DNA of 64,000 nucleotides from Phycisphaeraceae bacterium D3-23 (GTDB lineage: Bacteria; Planctomycetota; Phycisphaerae; Phycisphaerales; Phycisphaeraceae), in the NCBI GenBank assembly GCA_039555135.1, contig CP114179.1, positions 2,294,001 through 2,358,000 on the forward strand, written 5' to 3'. Position numbers and translations under genes: made by a program. The notes beneath the pieces are model-generated. The model was given only the letters and a program-made list of their open reading frames with translations. It did not search any database and had not been told where the DNA came from. This document shows, one piece after another, positions 2,689 through 60,799 of the stretch. Within the stretch, counting starts at the first letter, position 1, and the number at the start of each line of letters is the position of its first letter.

Positions 2689-5556
2689 TCACACCCCGAG
2701 CGCTACCGCGTCCCGGTCGCAGAGCATCCCACCATCGCTGCGCGGCTTGACCGTGCCGTCGCGCTTCCACGACCGCTCGCAGCGCGGCTGGTCACGGAGG
2801 TCGGTGACGGTGATCGTGTCACCGCCGAAGGCGAACCGGCTCACGCCGCACAGGTCCGCAAGGTCGGCCGGGTCGTACCCCGCAAAGTCGCCCGGCACAT
2901 CGAGCCCGAGGTCGAGCGGGTTATCAACGCCCAGTGCTTTACGCTGGTCTTCGAGTTGCTTCATCCAGCCGTCGCGCTGCGCCATCGCATCCGCCCAGCG
3001 CGGGTCGGCCAGCGCGGCGATGGTGGAGCAGACGGTGCAGGCCGGTAGCACTTCGAGGTGGACGCAGTCGCTGCTGTCTTTGTCGCTGCCGCGCAGTACG
3101 CGCCACGCCTCATCGGCGGTATGTGGGCAGATCGGCCCGAGCAGGCGGGTCAGGCCGGACGTGATGCGGTGCAGCGCGGTCTGCGTGCGTCGCCGACGGG
3201 CGCTGGCCAGCGCGTCGCAGTACAGCCGATCCTTCACGGCAAACAGGTACACCGCGCTGAGCGTGTCGTTACAGAAGTTGAAGATCGCCCGGCTCACCCC
3301 ACGGAAGTTGAACGCCGCAAAATCTTCGTTGACCTTCAATGCGAAATCGACGTACGCCTTCATCGCCCACGCGTCGATGCTCGTCGCGTCCGCATCCGAC
3401 CACTCATGGGCATCGGTCTTCGGATCGAAGCCGTCCAGGTTGCTCAGCAGAAACCGCAGGGTATTGCGCACTTTCCGGTACTCCTCGCCGGCGAGCCGGA
3501 AGAAGTCGAGGTCGGCCTTGATGTCGTTGTCGGTATTCAGCGAGCAGACCCACCAGCGCGCGACGTCCGCGCCGAACTGCTCCATCAGCTTCTCGACCTT
3601 CAGCGCATTGCCCTCGGACTTGCTCATCTTTCGGCCGTTCTTATCGACCATGAAGCCGTGGGTCAGGACGGTCTTGAACGGCGATTGGCCGTGCAGCGCG
3701 ACGGCGGGGAGCAGCGAGTGCTGGAACCACCCGCGGTGCTGGTCGGACCCTTCGAGGTAGAGGTCGGTGGGGAAAGCCCCCGGAAGTGGGACTCCGTTGC
3801 CATCCACTTGTTCGGTTTGTTTGTCTGCCCAGCCGTGAAGCATGACCGCGTTCCACGACGAGCCGGACTCGAACCAGACGTCGAAGGTGTCGAAACTTTT
3901 TTCGAGAGAGGCGAGGTCTTTCCGGCTTCCCCCGTTCTTGGTCTGGAGCCATCCCAACGTATCCGGGTCTGTGTCGGGGTCATAGTGTTGCAGCAGTTCT
4001 TCCGCCGACATGTAGAACCACGCGTCACTGCCCTTCTCCGCAAAAACCTGTGCGACCGCGCGGACCGATGCTGCGGTCAGCAACACATCGCCTTGGTTGA
4101 AGAACGCGGGGATCGGGAGGCCCCAACTGCGTTGGCGCGAGATGCACCAGTCGGGGCGCGATTCGAGCATGCCGCGCATTCGGTTACGGCCCCACTCGGG
4201 GAGGAACTTCACGCGGTCGGCGGCTTCGGACATGGCCGCGTCGCGTAGGGCAGACTGATCGCCGTAGGGCTTATCGACGCCGATGAACCACTGCTCGGTG
4301 GCGCGGAAGATGACGGGTTTTTTGCCGCGCCAGTCGTGCGGGTAGCTGTGCATGAACTTGTTGGCGTGGAAGAGGTGCCCGCTCTCGCGCAGGTGATCGA
4401 CGACCTGTTCGTTGGCTTTGAAGATATGTTGGCCCTGGAGCCAGCCGGGCACGGTGTCGTCATAGGTCCCGTCCGCCTGCACCGGGCAGTACACTTCGAG
4501 CCCTTCGCGCAGGCCGGTCTGGTAGTCCTCGACGCCGTGGCCCGGCGCGGTGTGGACCAGCCCCGTGCCGTCTTCGAGCGTGACGTATTCGGCATGGACG
4601 AGCTTCCCGACACGCTGCATGAACGGGTGGCTGTAGGTCACGCCGACGAGGTCCTTGCCCTTGAACGTCTCCACCGGCTTGGCGTCTTCGACCCCCTCGG
4701 CCGCGAGCACCTTCGCCGCGAGTTCGACCGCCATCACGACACGCCGACCTCCGACTTCGTACACGCCGTAGTCGTAACGCTCGTGCACCGCCACCGACAG
4801 GTTCGCGGGGAGCGTCCACGGCGTCGTCGTCCAGATCATCACGCTGTCGAAGCGGTCTTTGTTTGGCGAGTCGACCGTCAGATCGAACACCACAAACACC
4901 GACGTATCTTCCTTGTCGTAGTACTCCAACTCCGCCTCGGCTAGGGCCGTCTGGTTCGCGATCGACCAGTGCACGGGTTTGAGTTGGCGGAACACGAGGC
5001 CCTTCTCGACGAGCCCGGCAAATACATCGAGCACACCGGCTTCGTACTTGGGCAGCATGGTCAGGTACGGGTCGTCGTAGTCCGCCATCGTGAGCAGCCG
5101 TTGCATCTGGCCTTTTTGCAGCTTCACGAATTTCTCGGCGTAGGTCTTGCACTTGCGGCGGACCTGGATCGGCTCCATGTCTTTGGCTTTTTCGCCCAGG
5201 TCTTGCATGACTTTGTGTTCGATGGGCAGGCCGTGGCAGTCCCACCCGGGCGTGTAGGGGCAGTCCTTGCCGAGCATGTTCTGGGAGCGGACGACGAGGT
5301 CTTTGAGGACTTTGTTGAGCAGATGGCCCAGGTGGATGTCGCCGTTGGCGTAGGGTGGGCCGTCGTGAAAGACGAAGGGTTTGGCGTTGTCGGCTTTGCG
5401 TTTCGCGCGCAGCTTCCCGTAGACGTCGAGCTTGTCCCAGCGCTTCATGGAGGCCGGCTCGTTCTGGACGAGGTTGGCCTTCATCGGGAACGCGGTCTTG
5501 GGGAGGTTGAGCGTTTTCTTATAACGCTTGGGATCTTTCGTGGTGGCGTCGGTCAT
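2689..5556 (-). CDS. ileS: Isoleucyl-tRNA synthetase
   Basis: A 955-residue class I aminoacyl-tRNA synthetase that charges tRNA-Ile with isoleucine in the cytosol. The signature HIGH motif appears as HLGH at residues 75-78 within PPYANGDIHLGH, and KMSKS is intact at residues 643-647. The large editing (CP1) domain lies between them, and a DQHRGWFQ stretch typical of IleS precedes KMSKS. The ATG at 5556 starts MTDATTKDPKRY. The frame stays open to 5658, but that stretch is not synthetase-like and overlaps the terminator, so it is rejected. The leader at 5656-5772 has the architecture of an Ile-responsive attenuator, so expression probably rises when charged tRNA-Ile is scarce. Confidence 0.98.
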   Translation of the reverse strand: MTDATTKDPKRYKKTLNLPKTAFPMKANLVQNEPASMKRWDKLDVYGKLRAKRKADNAKPFVFHDGPPYANGDIHLGHLLNKVLKDLVVRSQNMLGKDCPYTPGWDCHGLPIEHKVMQDLGEKAKDMEPIQVRRKCKTYAEKFVKLQKGQMQRLLTMADYDDPYLTMLPKYEAGVLDVFAGLVEKGLVFRQLKPVHWSIANQTALAEAELEYYDKEDTSVFVVFDLTVDSPNKDRFDSVMIWTTTPWTLPANLSVAVHERYDYGVYEVGGRRVVMAVELAAKVLAAEGVEDAKPVETFKGKDLVGVTYSHPFMQRVGKLVHAEYVTLEDGTGLVHTAPGHGVEDYQTGLREGLEVYCPVQADGTYDDTVPGWLQGQHIFKANEQVVDHLRESGHLFHANKFMHSYPHDWRGKKPVIFRATEQWFIGVDKPYGDQSALRDAAMSEAADRVKFLPEWGRNRMRGMLESRPDWCISRQRSWGLPIPAFFNQGDVLLTAASVRAVAQVFAEKGSDAWFYMSAEELLQHYDPDTDPDTLGWLQTKNGGSRKDLASLEKSFDTFDVWFESGSSWNAVMLHGWADKQTEQVDGNGVPLPGAFPTDLYLEGSDQHRGWFQHSLLPAVALHGQSPFKTVLTHGFMVDKNGRKMSKSEGNALKVEKLMEQFGADVARWWVCSLNTDNDIKADLDFFRLAGEEYRKVRNTLRFLLSNLDGFDPKTDAHEWSDADATSIDAWAMKAYVDFALKVNEDFAAFNFRGVSRAIFNFCNDTLSAVYLFAVKDRLYCDALASARRRRTQTALHRITSGLTRLLGPICPHTADEAWRVLRGSDKDSSDCVHLEVLPACTVCSTIAALADPRWADAMAQRDGWMKQLEDQRKALGVDNPLDLGLDVPGDFAGYDPADLADLCGVSRFAFGGDTITVTDLRDQPRCERSWKRDGTVKPRSDGGMLCDRDAVALGV

Positions 5557-5655: not shown

Positions 5656-5681
5656 CAAAAAAACCCCGCCTTACGGCAGGG
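5656..5681 (-). terminator. Intrinsic terminator in the ileS leader (attenuator 3:4 hairpin)
   Basis: On the minus strand the arm CCCTGCC (5681-5675), loop GTAA and arm GGCGGGG (5670-5664) form a seven-pair stem followed by seven T residues (5663-5657). It lies about 100 bases upstream of the ileS ATG and about 150 bases after the stop of the upstream gene, so it stands in front of ileS and can abort its transcript. The left arm can instead pair with bases at the leader-peptide stop codon. Confidence 0.85.
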
Positions 5682-5772
5682 CTCGTGGGGTGTGTTCCAA
5701 AGGAATCGCCCGGCCCTACCGGTGGGGGTCGTCAATCATAATCGCAATAATGATGGGCTGGGCGTAGGTCAT
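5675..5772 (-). promoter_or_regulatory. Putative ribosome-mediated attenuator of ileS (1:2 and 2:3 pairings)
   Basis: Number the leader RNA from the A of the leader ATG (5772). Segment 1, GCCCAGCCC (nt 10-18), can pair with GGGCCGGGC (nt 57-65) with one mismatch, enclosing the Ile codons. Segment 2, GGUAGGGC (nt 53-60, holding the peptide stop codon), can pair over eight positions, one of them U-G, with segment 3, GCCCUGCC (nt 91-98), which is the left arm of the terminator. A ribosome stalled at the Ile codons would leave segment 2 free and favour the antiterminator. A ribosome reaching the stop would mask segment 2 and favour termination. The pairings are read from the sequence; the mechanism is inferred from trp/his/pheST-type attenuators. 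Confidence 0.75.
5716..5772 (-). CDS. Ile-rich leader peptide of ileS (18 aa)
   Basis: ATG at 5772 opens an 18-codon frame, MTYAQPIIIAIMIDDPHR, ending in TAG at 5716-5718. Five of the 18 residues are Ile, three consecutive (ATC ATT ATT), followed by two more within four codons. The position, size and amino acid match what a leader peptide controlling isoleucyl-tRNA synthetase would need. A TATACT -10 box ends seven bases before the ATG, so the message may be leaderless. It is not known whether the peptide has any role beyond being translated. Confidence 0.75.
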   Translation of the reverse strand: MTYAQPIIIAIMIDDPHR

Positions 5773-5779
5773 GAGCGTC

Positions 5780-5785
5780 AGTATA
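5780..5785 (-). promoter_or_regulatory. -10 box (TATACT) for the ileS leader
   Basis: TATACT on the minus strand is preceded by GG and lies seven bases upstream of the leader-peptide ATG, placing the likely start of transcription at or next to that ATG. No good TTGACA-like -35 is seen at the usual distance. The same TATACT hexamer precedes the tRNA-Val gene at 60843-60848. Confidence 0.5.
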
Positions 5786-5832: not shown

Positions 5833-7188
5833 TTATGGAGTTTCGACCATGATCTCGTGCGCGATCCAGTCCCAGGTCGGGCGGGTCTCACCGTTGGACA
5901 AAACCAGTCCAGCATTACTCCGGGGGTGGATGTCTTCTAGGCCGGTCTGGGTGGTGGCGATGGAGCGCACGGCGGTGTCTTCGATGGGTGTGACTTCGCC
6001 GGGGTCGGAGATGGCGTTGGCGTTGCGGTCGTGCCAGAGGGCGAGGCCGAGGAGTTCGTCGCCGGCGAGTTGGCCGTCGCGGTTGTTGTCCAGGGCGTCG
6101 AGGGCCTGGTAGCCGTCGTCGAAGAGCATAAAGAAGGTCATGTTGCCAAAGAGCTGTTTGCCGCTGGTGATTTCGCCGGTGCGTTGCGGGTCCCACACGA
6201 GGAGGGCGGTGTCGGGGCGGACCCAGGGGCGGCGCTCGGCGGTGCCGTCGCCGTCGAGGTCGAAGTCCACCTGCAGCGCGGGGTCGAGGAGCTCGTCGAG
6301 GTGGGTGGGCGCATCGCCTTCGACGCGGAAGATAATCGGCGTGATGGCCTGGGGCTTGGCGTCGATCGCGGCGATGTCGGCGTTGATCTGTGCGGCGAGT
6401 TCCTCATCGACGGGCTCGACGCGGTGTTCTTCGACCAGGCGCAGGTAGGCCTTGCCCGCCTCGTAGGCGATCGGGAAGAACGGGTGCATGATGTGGTCGC
6501 TGGCCACGGCTTCTTCACGGTGCAATTCGTAGGCGCGGAAGTTTTCGTCGATCGCCCGGTCGATGTAGGTGTCGTAGAGCGGTTTGTCCCCGGATTCAGG
6601 GTCGGCGTCTCCCGCCTCTTCTGTTTCGCCCAGGTCTTCGTCGGACTTGGCTTCTGCGGCTTTCTCGGCGTCTTCGTCCGACTCACCTTCCGTAGCCGGG
6701 GATTCCGGGGCGAGGTCTTCGAGCGGGCCGATGAGGTCGGCGTAGTCGGCGGCCTGTTCGAGGATGCTGGCGAGGCCGAGGCGGTAGAGGGCGTTCTCTT
6801 GGTCGAGCGCGATCGCGTGCTCGAAGTGGGTGATGGCGTTGAGCGCGTGCTCGACGAGCGCATCTTCATCAAAGTCCGGCTGGTCGTCGAGCCCCCACTG
6901 GAGCTTGGGGTCGGCGAGGCGCGGGAGTTCCTGGGCGCTGCCTTCGGACATCGCGCGGATGACCGGAGAATTTTGTGCGAATGCGATGTAGTGGACCCGC
7001 GCGAGCATGAAGTGGGCCTCGGCGTTGTCGGGGTTTTCATCGAGGTAGGCACCGAGGTTGCGGGCGAGTCGTTCGACCGGGGCCTCGGGCGCGAGCATGA
7101 ACTGGCCGGGCACGGGGGTGGTGAGTGCGAAGACGCAGGTCGCGGTGAGGGTCAGTGTGGCGAGCTGGCGGAGGAGTCGGGTGCGCAT
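5833..7188 (-). CDS. Exported TPR-like protein with EF-hand-like segments
   Basis: A 451-residue protein with an N-terminal signal peptide (basic MRTRLLRQ, hydrophobic core, Ala/Pro-rich end by about residue 30). Residues about 40-160 look helical and TPR-like (ENPDNAEAHFMLARVHY; a later block with HFEHAIALDQENALYRLGLAS). A Glu/Asp/Ala-rich low-complexity stretch follows at about 165-205. The C-terminal third has two Ca-binding-type loops, DLDGDGTAERR and DNNRDGQLAGDELLGLALW, the second followed by DRNANAISDPGEV. A periplasmic or surface role is likely, but no function is assigned. ATG 7188 is preferred over an upstream TTG because AAGG precedes it. Its stop lies 48 bases before the ileS leader promoter. 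Confidence 0.8.
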   Translation of the reverse strand: MRTRLLRQLATLTLTATCVFALTTPVPGQFMLAPEAPVERLARNLGAYLDENPDNAEAHFMLARVHYIAFAQNSPVIRAMSEGSAQELPRLADPKLQWGLDDQPDFDEDALVEHALNAITHFEHAIALDQENALYRLGLASILEQAADYADLIGPLEDLAPESPATEGESDEDAEKAAEAKSDEDLGETEEAGDADPESGDKPLYDTYIDRAIDENFRAYELHREEAVASDHIMHPFFPIAYEAGKAYLRLVEEHRVEPVDEELAAQINADIAAIDAKPQAITPIIFRVEGDAPTHLDELLDPALQVDFDLDGDGTAERRPWVRPDTALLVWDPQRTGEITSGKQLFGNMTFFMLFDDGYQALDALDNNRDGQLAGDELLGLALWHDRNANAISDPGEVTPIEDTAVRSIATTQTGLEDIHPRSNAGLVLSNGETRPTWDWIAHEIMVETP

Positions 7189-60725: not shown

Positions 60726-60799
60726 TGGGCCATACTGGACTTGAACCAGTGACCTCCTCGATGTCAACGAGGCGCGCTAGCCAACTGCGCCAATGGCCC
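60726..60799 (-). tRNA. tRNA-Val (anticodon GAC)
   Basis: A 74-base cloverleaf: acceptor GGGCCAT / ATGGCCC with discriminator A, D arm GGCGCAG...GCGC, anticodon stem CCTCG/CGAGG around TTGACAT (anticodon GAC), and T arm CTGGTTCAAGTCCAG. The CCA end is not encoded. A TATACT -10 box lies about 44 bases upstream. Confidence 0.95.

Follow-up and report, generated by a model that had tools for sequence, protein, structure and literature searches.

A probable isoleucine-sensing leader-peptide attenuator upstream of ileS and cimA in Planctomycetota

The mechanism of leader-peptide attenuation has been described together with leader-gene statistics that include Planctomycetes, and neither isoleucine nor ileS appears in the accessible part of that text (PMC4833913). 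To the authors of a 2010 survey, leader-peptide systems were known from Proteobacteria and Actinobacteria alone, and the survey itself contributed hisS paralogues in bacilli (Firmicutes); Planctomycetes and ileS go unmentioned in the available excerpt (PMC2965389). Actinobacteria are reported to use leader attenuators at trp, trpS and leuS, with ileS under T-boxes (PMC1262725). The open-access full-text literature, which holds few subscription papers, yielded no leader peptide upstream of either ileS or cimA, nor any in Planctomycetota with amino-acid logic. This agrees with a preliminary description of the present DNA, whose author knew of no such case for ileS. Although the kind of mechanism is known, the phylum, the targets and the conserved RNA design described here look new within the open-access literature.

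The DNA analyzed is a 64-kb stretch (the window) of Phycisphaeraceae bacterium D3-23. All elements of its ileS leader lie on the minus strand (Table 1). The inventory given in the preliminary description is accurate: a frame of 18 codons, five of them Ile and three of these consecutive, sits between TATACT and an intrinsic terminator, segments 2 and 3 can form eight pairs including one U-G, seven U follow the 3:4 hairpin, and the stop codon falls inside segment 2. Judged from sequence, the leader is probably (about 0.85) a ribosome-mediated transcription attenuator of the trp/his/pheST type that would sense charged tRNA-Ile. This reading is based on the parts, their conservation, their spacing, their co-variation and the logic of the pathway. 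The attenuation proposed earlier thus largely survives as the most likely function, with cimA as a second target and a probable leaderless start now added.

Table 1. Features of the ileS leader in the window, with the thrS leader of the same genome
Feature	Position	Strand	Evidence or remark
Likely -10 box TATACT	5785-5780	-	7 nt between box end and leader ATG
Leader peptide frame MTYAQPIIIAIMIDDPHR, ATG to TAG, 18 codons, 5 Ile	5771-5715	-	sequence; Ile-rich frame kept in 26 genomes
Leader stop UAG	inside segment 2 GGUAGGGC	-	sequence
Ile codons 7-9, consecutive, ATC ATT ATT, start of putative stall cluster	5753-5745	-	sequence
Ile codons 11 and 13, ATT and ATT	5741-5733	-	sequence; codon 13 ends 13 nt upstream of segment 2
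Segment 1 (source species) CGCCCAGCCC	5763-5754	-	9/10 pairs with 5706-5715 in predicted fold
Segment 2' GGGCCGGGCG, partner of segment 1	5715-5706	-	predicted fold; four bases in common with segment 2
Segment 2 GGUAGGGC, putative antiterminator 5' arm, stop codon inside	5719-5712	-	near-invariant across relatives
Segment 3 GCCCUGCC, common to antiterminator and terminator	5682-5675	-	sequence, conservation
Segment 4 GGCGGGG, terminator 3' arm	5670-5664	-	fold, terminator scan, conservation
U run, seven U, end of intrinsic terminator	5663-5657	-	sequence
Whole terminator	5684-5657	-	stem 5684-5661, 10 pairs, 4-base loop (GUAA), then 7 U
ileS, isoleucine-tRNA ligase, putative regulated gene	2689-5556, start 5556	-	TIGR00392 818.5 bits, cut-off 621.4
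thrS leader of the source genome (G000)	L250:990, G000:C1 ~2020400-2020531

The frame is exceptional in its surroundings. The window holds 362 ATG-initiated frames of 10-30 codons, both strands counted, and no other combines five or more Ile codons with three in succession. Segment 1 can pair as GCCCAGCCC:GGGCCGGGC (8/9 pairs), which the minimum-energy fold lengthens to CGCCCAGCCC:GGGCCGGGCG (9/10). The leader folds moderately better than its shuffles (z -1.98, equalled by 6/200), so the claim is carried by conservation and not by folding energy alone.

Conservation was assessed in ileS upstream DNA from 91 genomes of the order, comprising 48 of the source family (f1), 6 of a sister family (f6), 16 of f2, 6 of f5, 14 of f3 and 1 of f4; two of the stretches are short (222 nt in G031, 278 nt in G064). 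The full element was defined as an Ile-rich frame, GGYAGGG at or just past the stop, and a terminator with a CCTGCC arm. It precedes ileS in 24/48 genomes of the source family, the comparison for Ile-rich frames that the preliminary description had proposed, and in 2/6 of the sister family; the remaining half of the source family is without it upstream of ileS. These 26 include the degenerate leader of G026, with two Ile codons, several Met codons and an altered segment 2. Outside the order, the element precedes ileS at three loci of family f11 (L211, L260 and L263; TIGR00392 above cut-off). Most relatives carry GGTAGGG followed by GGCGAT, the counterpart of segment 2'. In G009 and G071 the stop has been relocated upstream as UGA and segment 2 is retained as GGCAGGGC; because this sequence persists past the moved stop, the RNA segment appears to be kept for its own sake.

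Other Ile-rich frames, outside the element count, occur in front of ileS. All six f5 upstream regions contain a differently built short frame, for example MKPLTAAISIRIGITTPH, and at these loci (L049-L052, L061 and L073) the hairpin is weaker and has no clear U run; this is possibly a second design. A short frame with four Ile codons is present in 3/14 f3 upstream regions. One record titled Rickettsiales bacterium isolate MED721 (L039) encodes an IleRS about 50% identical to that of the source planctomycete and may be mislabelled.

The terminator might simply end the upstream gene, with ileS transcribed from its own promoter further down and the Ile-rich frame a product of chance. The upstream gene, ending at 5833, does run in the same direction as ileS, and orphan or bidirectional terminators are common. 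However, the leader persists where the gene upstream of ileS changes from one genome to the next. The source genome's own neighbour lies beside ileS in just two of the 26 leader rows, its own and that of G002, some rows covering stretches of 0.1-1 kb. The same element also stands before cimA in other neighbourhoods, and its Ile codons hold their position across genera. The changing neighbours led us to reject an orphan terminator of the upstream gene, an account that we consider very improbable.

The leader might also be a tRNA-binding T-box or another RNA-only riboswitch. In Firmicutes, T-boxes classically control ileS, and Actinobacteria have translational T-boxes at this gene (PMC1262725). 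The T-box model RF00230 nevertheless has no match in the source genome and matches in 5/14 controls, and a T-box identity was rejected. No Rfam 15 family exceeds its gathering threshold at the leader, and the known leaders in that collection (Trp, His, Phe, Thr, Leu and others) were rejected on this ground; its sole match in the window is a tRNA at 60726-60799, and 12 related loci have none. The transcript upstream of the terminator would also measure just ~90-110 nt, with a conserved, translated-looking frame in it. The probability left to an RNA-only sensor is close to nil.

The attenuator reading places the sensor in the peptide frame, where Ile codons recur at fixed distances from the stop. 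Counted back from the stop in 23 leaders, Ile occupies codon -7 in 19, -8 in 16, -9 in 20 and -12 in 16. The last Ile of the cluster lies 16 nt from segment 2 in 17 of 25 leaders and 13 nt in 5, the others having 10, 14 and 22 nt, under a rule that ignores Ile codons closer than 10 nt to segment 2 (G069, G035 and G022). A ribosome extends roughly this far, 13-16 nt, beyond its A site; a stall at the Ile cluster would therefore leave segment 2 free, and a ribosome finishing at the stop would cover it.

Codon choice within the frame is unusual. Genes of the window use ATC 578 times for isoleucine, ATT 83 times and ATA 30 times. The rare AUU is preferred in the leaders: across the 14 genomes with a readable ileS, ATT accounts for 42/64 leader Ile codons against 58/337 within ileS (Fisher P 2.8e-14). 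Constraints on the RNA may also help to retain AUU. At the three codon positions the mismatch rates are 0.44, 0.55 and 0.50, unlike the pattern of an ordinary coding frame, and the conservation of in-frame Ile codons is better evidence for the frame than these rates; its translation is putative.

How translation would begin is suggested by the promoter. A TATAAT, TATACT or TATGAT box ends 6-10 nt upstream of the in-frame start in 20/26 leaders and 13 nt upstream in two more; G032 was counted as lacking a -10 box, since its apparent one belongs to a far longer frame. Such a fit occurs at 201/20000 random positions of the same upstream DNA, a comparison somewhat favoured by the choice of start codon among in-frame candidates. 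The promoter scan found no sigma-70 promoter with a -35 box at the ileS leader. As the usual gap from a -10 box to the first transcribed base is 6-7 nt, the leader mRNA would begin at the start codon or a few bases from it, and leader translation is probably leaderless.

The RNA pairings differ in how far they co-vary. For 2:3, 76 of 83 ileS and cimA leaders could be anchored, the seven left out as unanchorable being the cimA leaders of G002, G410, G015, G856 and G453 and the ileS rows of G488 and G026. Seven inner pairs form a nearly invariant core. The pair at the stop-codon U is U-G in 70 leaders, C-G in 4 and U-A in 2, a standard pair in every case. The co-variation anticipated for this helix is found at the outermost pair, in which the last codon contributes its first base and the terminator loop the other; a partner in that loop leaves the pair free of any 3:4 constraint. 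The outermost pair is C-G in 30 leaders, G-C in 23, U-A in 1 and U-G in 1, giving 55/76 standard pairs where shuffles, which ignore relatedness, average 33.1 and never reach that count (0/5000). The types largely follow families, with switches within f1 (G033, G-C) and within f11 (G512, C-G). The last amino acid goes from Arg to Gly along with the switch of the outer pair, which argues that the pairing and not the peptide is kept. Taken whole, the 2:3 helix gives P 0.19 in a duplex permutation over 25 ileS leaders and 0.098 over 15 (one per genus); its near-invariance keeps both values from significance.

The 3:4 hairpin, located between frame and gene, is conserved as an intrinsic terminator and is followed by a U run. 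The co-variation expected of it exceeds permutation over 25 rows (0/5000) but not over one row per genus (15 rows, P 0.10). Complementarity of segments 1 and 2' is higher within than between genomes in the ileS leaders (P 0.019 over 25 rows, 0.017 over 15 with one per genus; a control stretch gave 0.81 and 0.91). The 1:2 pairing was first placed at codons 4-6 with 8 of 9 pairs, an arrangement specific to the source species; in relatives GGCGAU mostly pairs with an AUCGCC that coincides with the Ile codons or adjoins them. Variants are AACGCC:GGCGUU (G001), AUCGGC:GCCGAU (G035) and the longer CGAUCGCC:GGCGAUCG (G029).

Folds were predicted for 25 leaders with and without a ribosome, a stalled ribosome being placed on the last clustered Ile codon. 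With the ribosome stalled and segment 4 not yet made, the mean P(2:3) is 0.94; with the ribosome at the stop, the mean P(3:4) is 0.96. At equilibrium on the full-length RNA, a stalled ribosome gives mean P(2:3) 0.29 and P(3:4) 0.67 (0.03 and 0.96 in the source species). Because these full-length folds favour the terminator, antitermination must be kinetic, with 2:3 forming first. In the absence of a ribosome, the mean P(2:3) is 0.72 before segment 4 is made (0.96 in the source species), and P(3:4) is 0.69 at full length. Arm 1 thus blocks little in nested folds, where 2:3 forms even with no ribosome present and segment 4 still to come; the 1:2 arm is the weakest part of the attenuator reading.

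This weakness bears on a further account, in which the Ile codons act by another step (Rho, translation initiation, or a pseudoknot of 1:2 with 2:3) and not by strict three-way exclusion. In most relatives GGCGAU adjoins segment 2 without overlapping it, which makes 1:2 and 2:3 topologically compatible as an H-type pseudoknot; the weak blocking of 2:3 by arm 1 in nested folds also speaks for this account. Yet the relatives conserve an intrinsic terminator with its U run, the source species has a 1:2 pairing that overlaps segment 2 by four bases, and a ribosome stalling at the Ile codons would disrupt a required pseudoknot, so that a synthetase gene would respond with the wrong sign. We regard such a step as unlikely.

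Under attenuation, RNA polymerase would start at most a few bases from the ATG of the leader, whose new 5' end would then be loaded with a ribosome. With Ile-tRNA plentiful, the ribosome would reach UAG and mask segment 2, 3:4 would pair, and transcription would terminate upstream of ileS. With Ile-tRNA short, it would halt at the AUU/AUC cluster, 13-16 nt before segment 2, which could then take segment 3 before segment 4 exists and allow read-through into ileS. If the leader is not translated, segment 1 may tie up the region just past segment 2 and favour termination, the least certain step.

A second target emerged from a covariance model built solely from the 26 ileS leaders. The model was searched against overlapping sets drawn from the order (400 genomes), the class (397) and the phylum (392), and 77 loci among the matches listed were opened, some of them short or partial. 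In 53/77 the next gene is cimA (citramalate synthase), recognized by its N-terminal motif. This target was unsought: the Ile-richness of the matches is partly selected, as the model includes the Ile codons, but the identity of the gene is not. Of 13 cimA proteins checked against NCBIfam, 11 exceed the TIGR00977 cut-off and two are contig-end fragments with TIGR00977 as best or sole match. Within the source family, cimA is above cut-off in 46/51 genomes, and a model match lies directly upstream of it in at least 36 of those 46 (two lists compared by hand). One cimA match outside the class, L255 (G856), has a citramalate synthase scoring 692.6 bits and a diverged terminator. A few cimA leaders are poor in isoleucine (L192, L223, L224 and L268, two Ile codons each), and a search of the L227 cimA leader for an Ile-rich frame found none. 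Ten of the 77 opened matches have no recognized target (L229, L234, L235, L251, L253, L254, L256, L258, L269 and L270). A G488 match labelled ileS (L262) was left out of the count, as ileS begins ~1.4 kb downstream.

The copies before cimA sit in other gene neighbourhoods than those before ileS, and the sensed amino acid matches the regulated genes, ileS and cimA (TIGR00977). CimA catalyzes the first step of isoleucine synthesis from pyruvate; ileS and cimA would therefore answer the same signal, and an element before cimA fits an isoleucine signal. The source genome has no cimA above cut-off and has ilvA above its cut-off, which suggests that it has changed to another route to isoleucine. No leader was found upstream of its ilvA in 450 nt read and 500 nt scanned.

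Leaders rich in other amino acids were seen along the way. The source genome carries a Thr-rich leader, MPQQQTTTTATPLTLTPTRSGRPTR, ending in CGGTAG, with a terminator-like hairpin upstream of thrS (thrS above cut-off). Five f2 loci (L230, L231, L232, L233 and L237) have Thr-rich leaders, for example MHRPTTTTTTTTATRHRG, and terminators before thrS, identified by TIGR00418 in L231, L232, L233 and L237 and a candidate in L230. Locus L236 (G187) has an Asn-rich leader end, NTNTINNANR..., and a terminator before asparagine synthase B (above cut-off), and at L209 (G025) and L210 (G010) aspS (above cut-off in L210, a fragment in L209) is preceded by leaders that resemble GGTAGGGC and contain Asn or Asp codons; an Asn signal before aspS would fit a non-discriminating AspRS. 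Two loci come from other classes of the phylum: L252 (G868), with a Leu-rich leader (KLLLLSP) and terminator before leuA, and L257 (G1043), with a leader rich in Ile, Leu and Val and a terminator before ilvD.

We lean towards a broader proposal, that leaderless leader-peptide attenuators with the stop codon built into the antiterminator arm serve Planctomycetota, Phycisphaerae above all, as general sensors of amino-acid starvation in place of T-boxes. Isoleucine would be read at ileS and cimA (one regulon), threonine at thrS (source genome included), asparagine at asnB and aspS, leucine at leuA, and branched-chain codons at ilvD.

A two-gene isoleucine regulon in Planctomycetota would extend leader-peptide attenuation to a distant phylum, and the leader covariance model finds new members. 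The system would allow ribosome stalling coupled to transcription to be tested in cells of an odd plan, and with it whether leaderless initiation is suited to such coupling. It would also be an example of one RNA segment acting together as stop codon, antiterminator and terminator partner.

Among known systems, the trp, his and pheST attenuators of Proteobacteria are alike in their short frame with many codons for the amino acid sensed, their 2:3 antiterminator and 3:4 intrinsic terminator and, in pheST, a synthetase target. The Planctomycetota leader differs from them in its phylum, in sensing isoleucine for ileS and cimA, in a stop codon within antiterminator arm 2, in its probably leaderless start, and in an arm 1 that mostly consists of or adjoins the Ile codons and blocks weakly; Rfam gave no sign of sequence kinship. 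The leaders of ilvGMEDA (E. coli) and ilvBNC (Corynebacterium) likewise place branched-chain codons in control of branched-chain amino acid genes, but they target ilv biosynthesis through Ile, Leu and Val codons, whereas the present leaders are mainly Ile-rich and precede ileS and cimA. The trpS and leuS leaders of Actinobacteria provide a parallel for synthetase attenuation outside Proteobacteria; in the available portion of that study, ileS is under T-boxes there and leader peptides serve trpS and leuS, unlike the ileS leader here (PMC1262725). The leaderless trp leader peptide of Sinorhizobium shares an mRNA starting at or near the start codon and differs in sensed amino acid, target and phylum.
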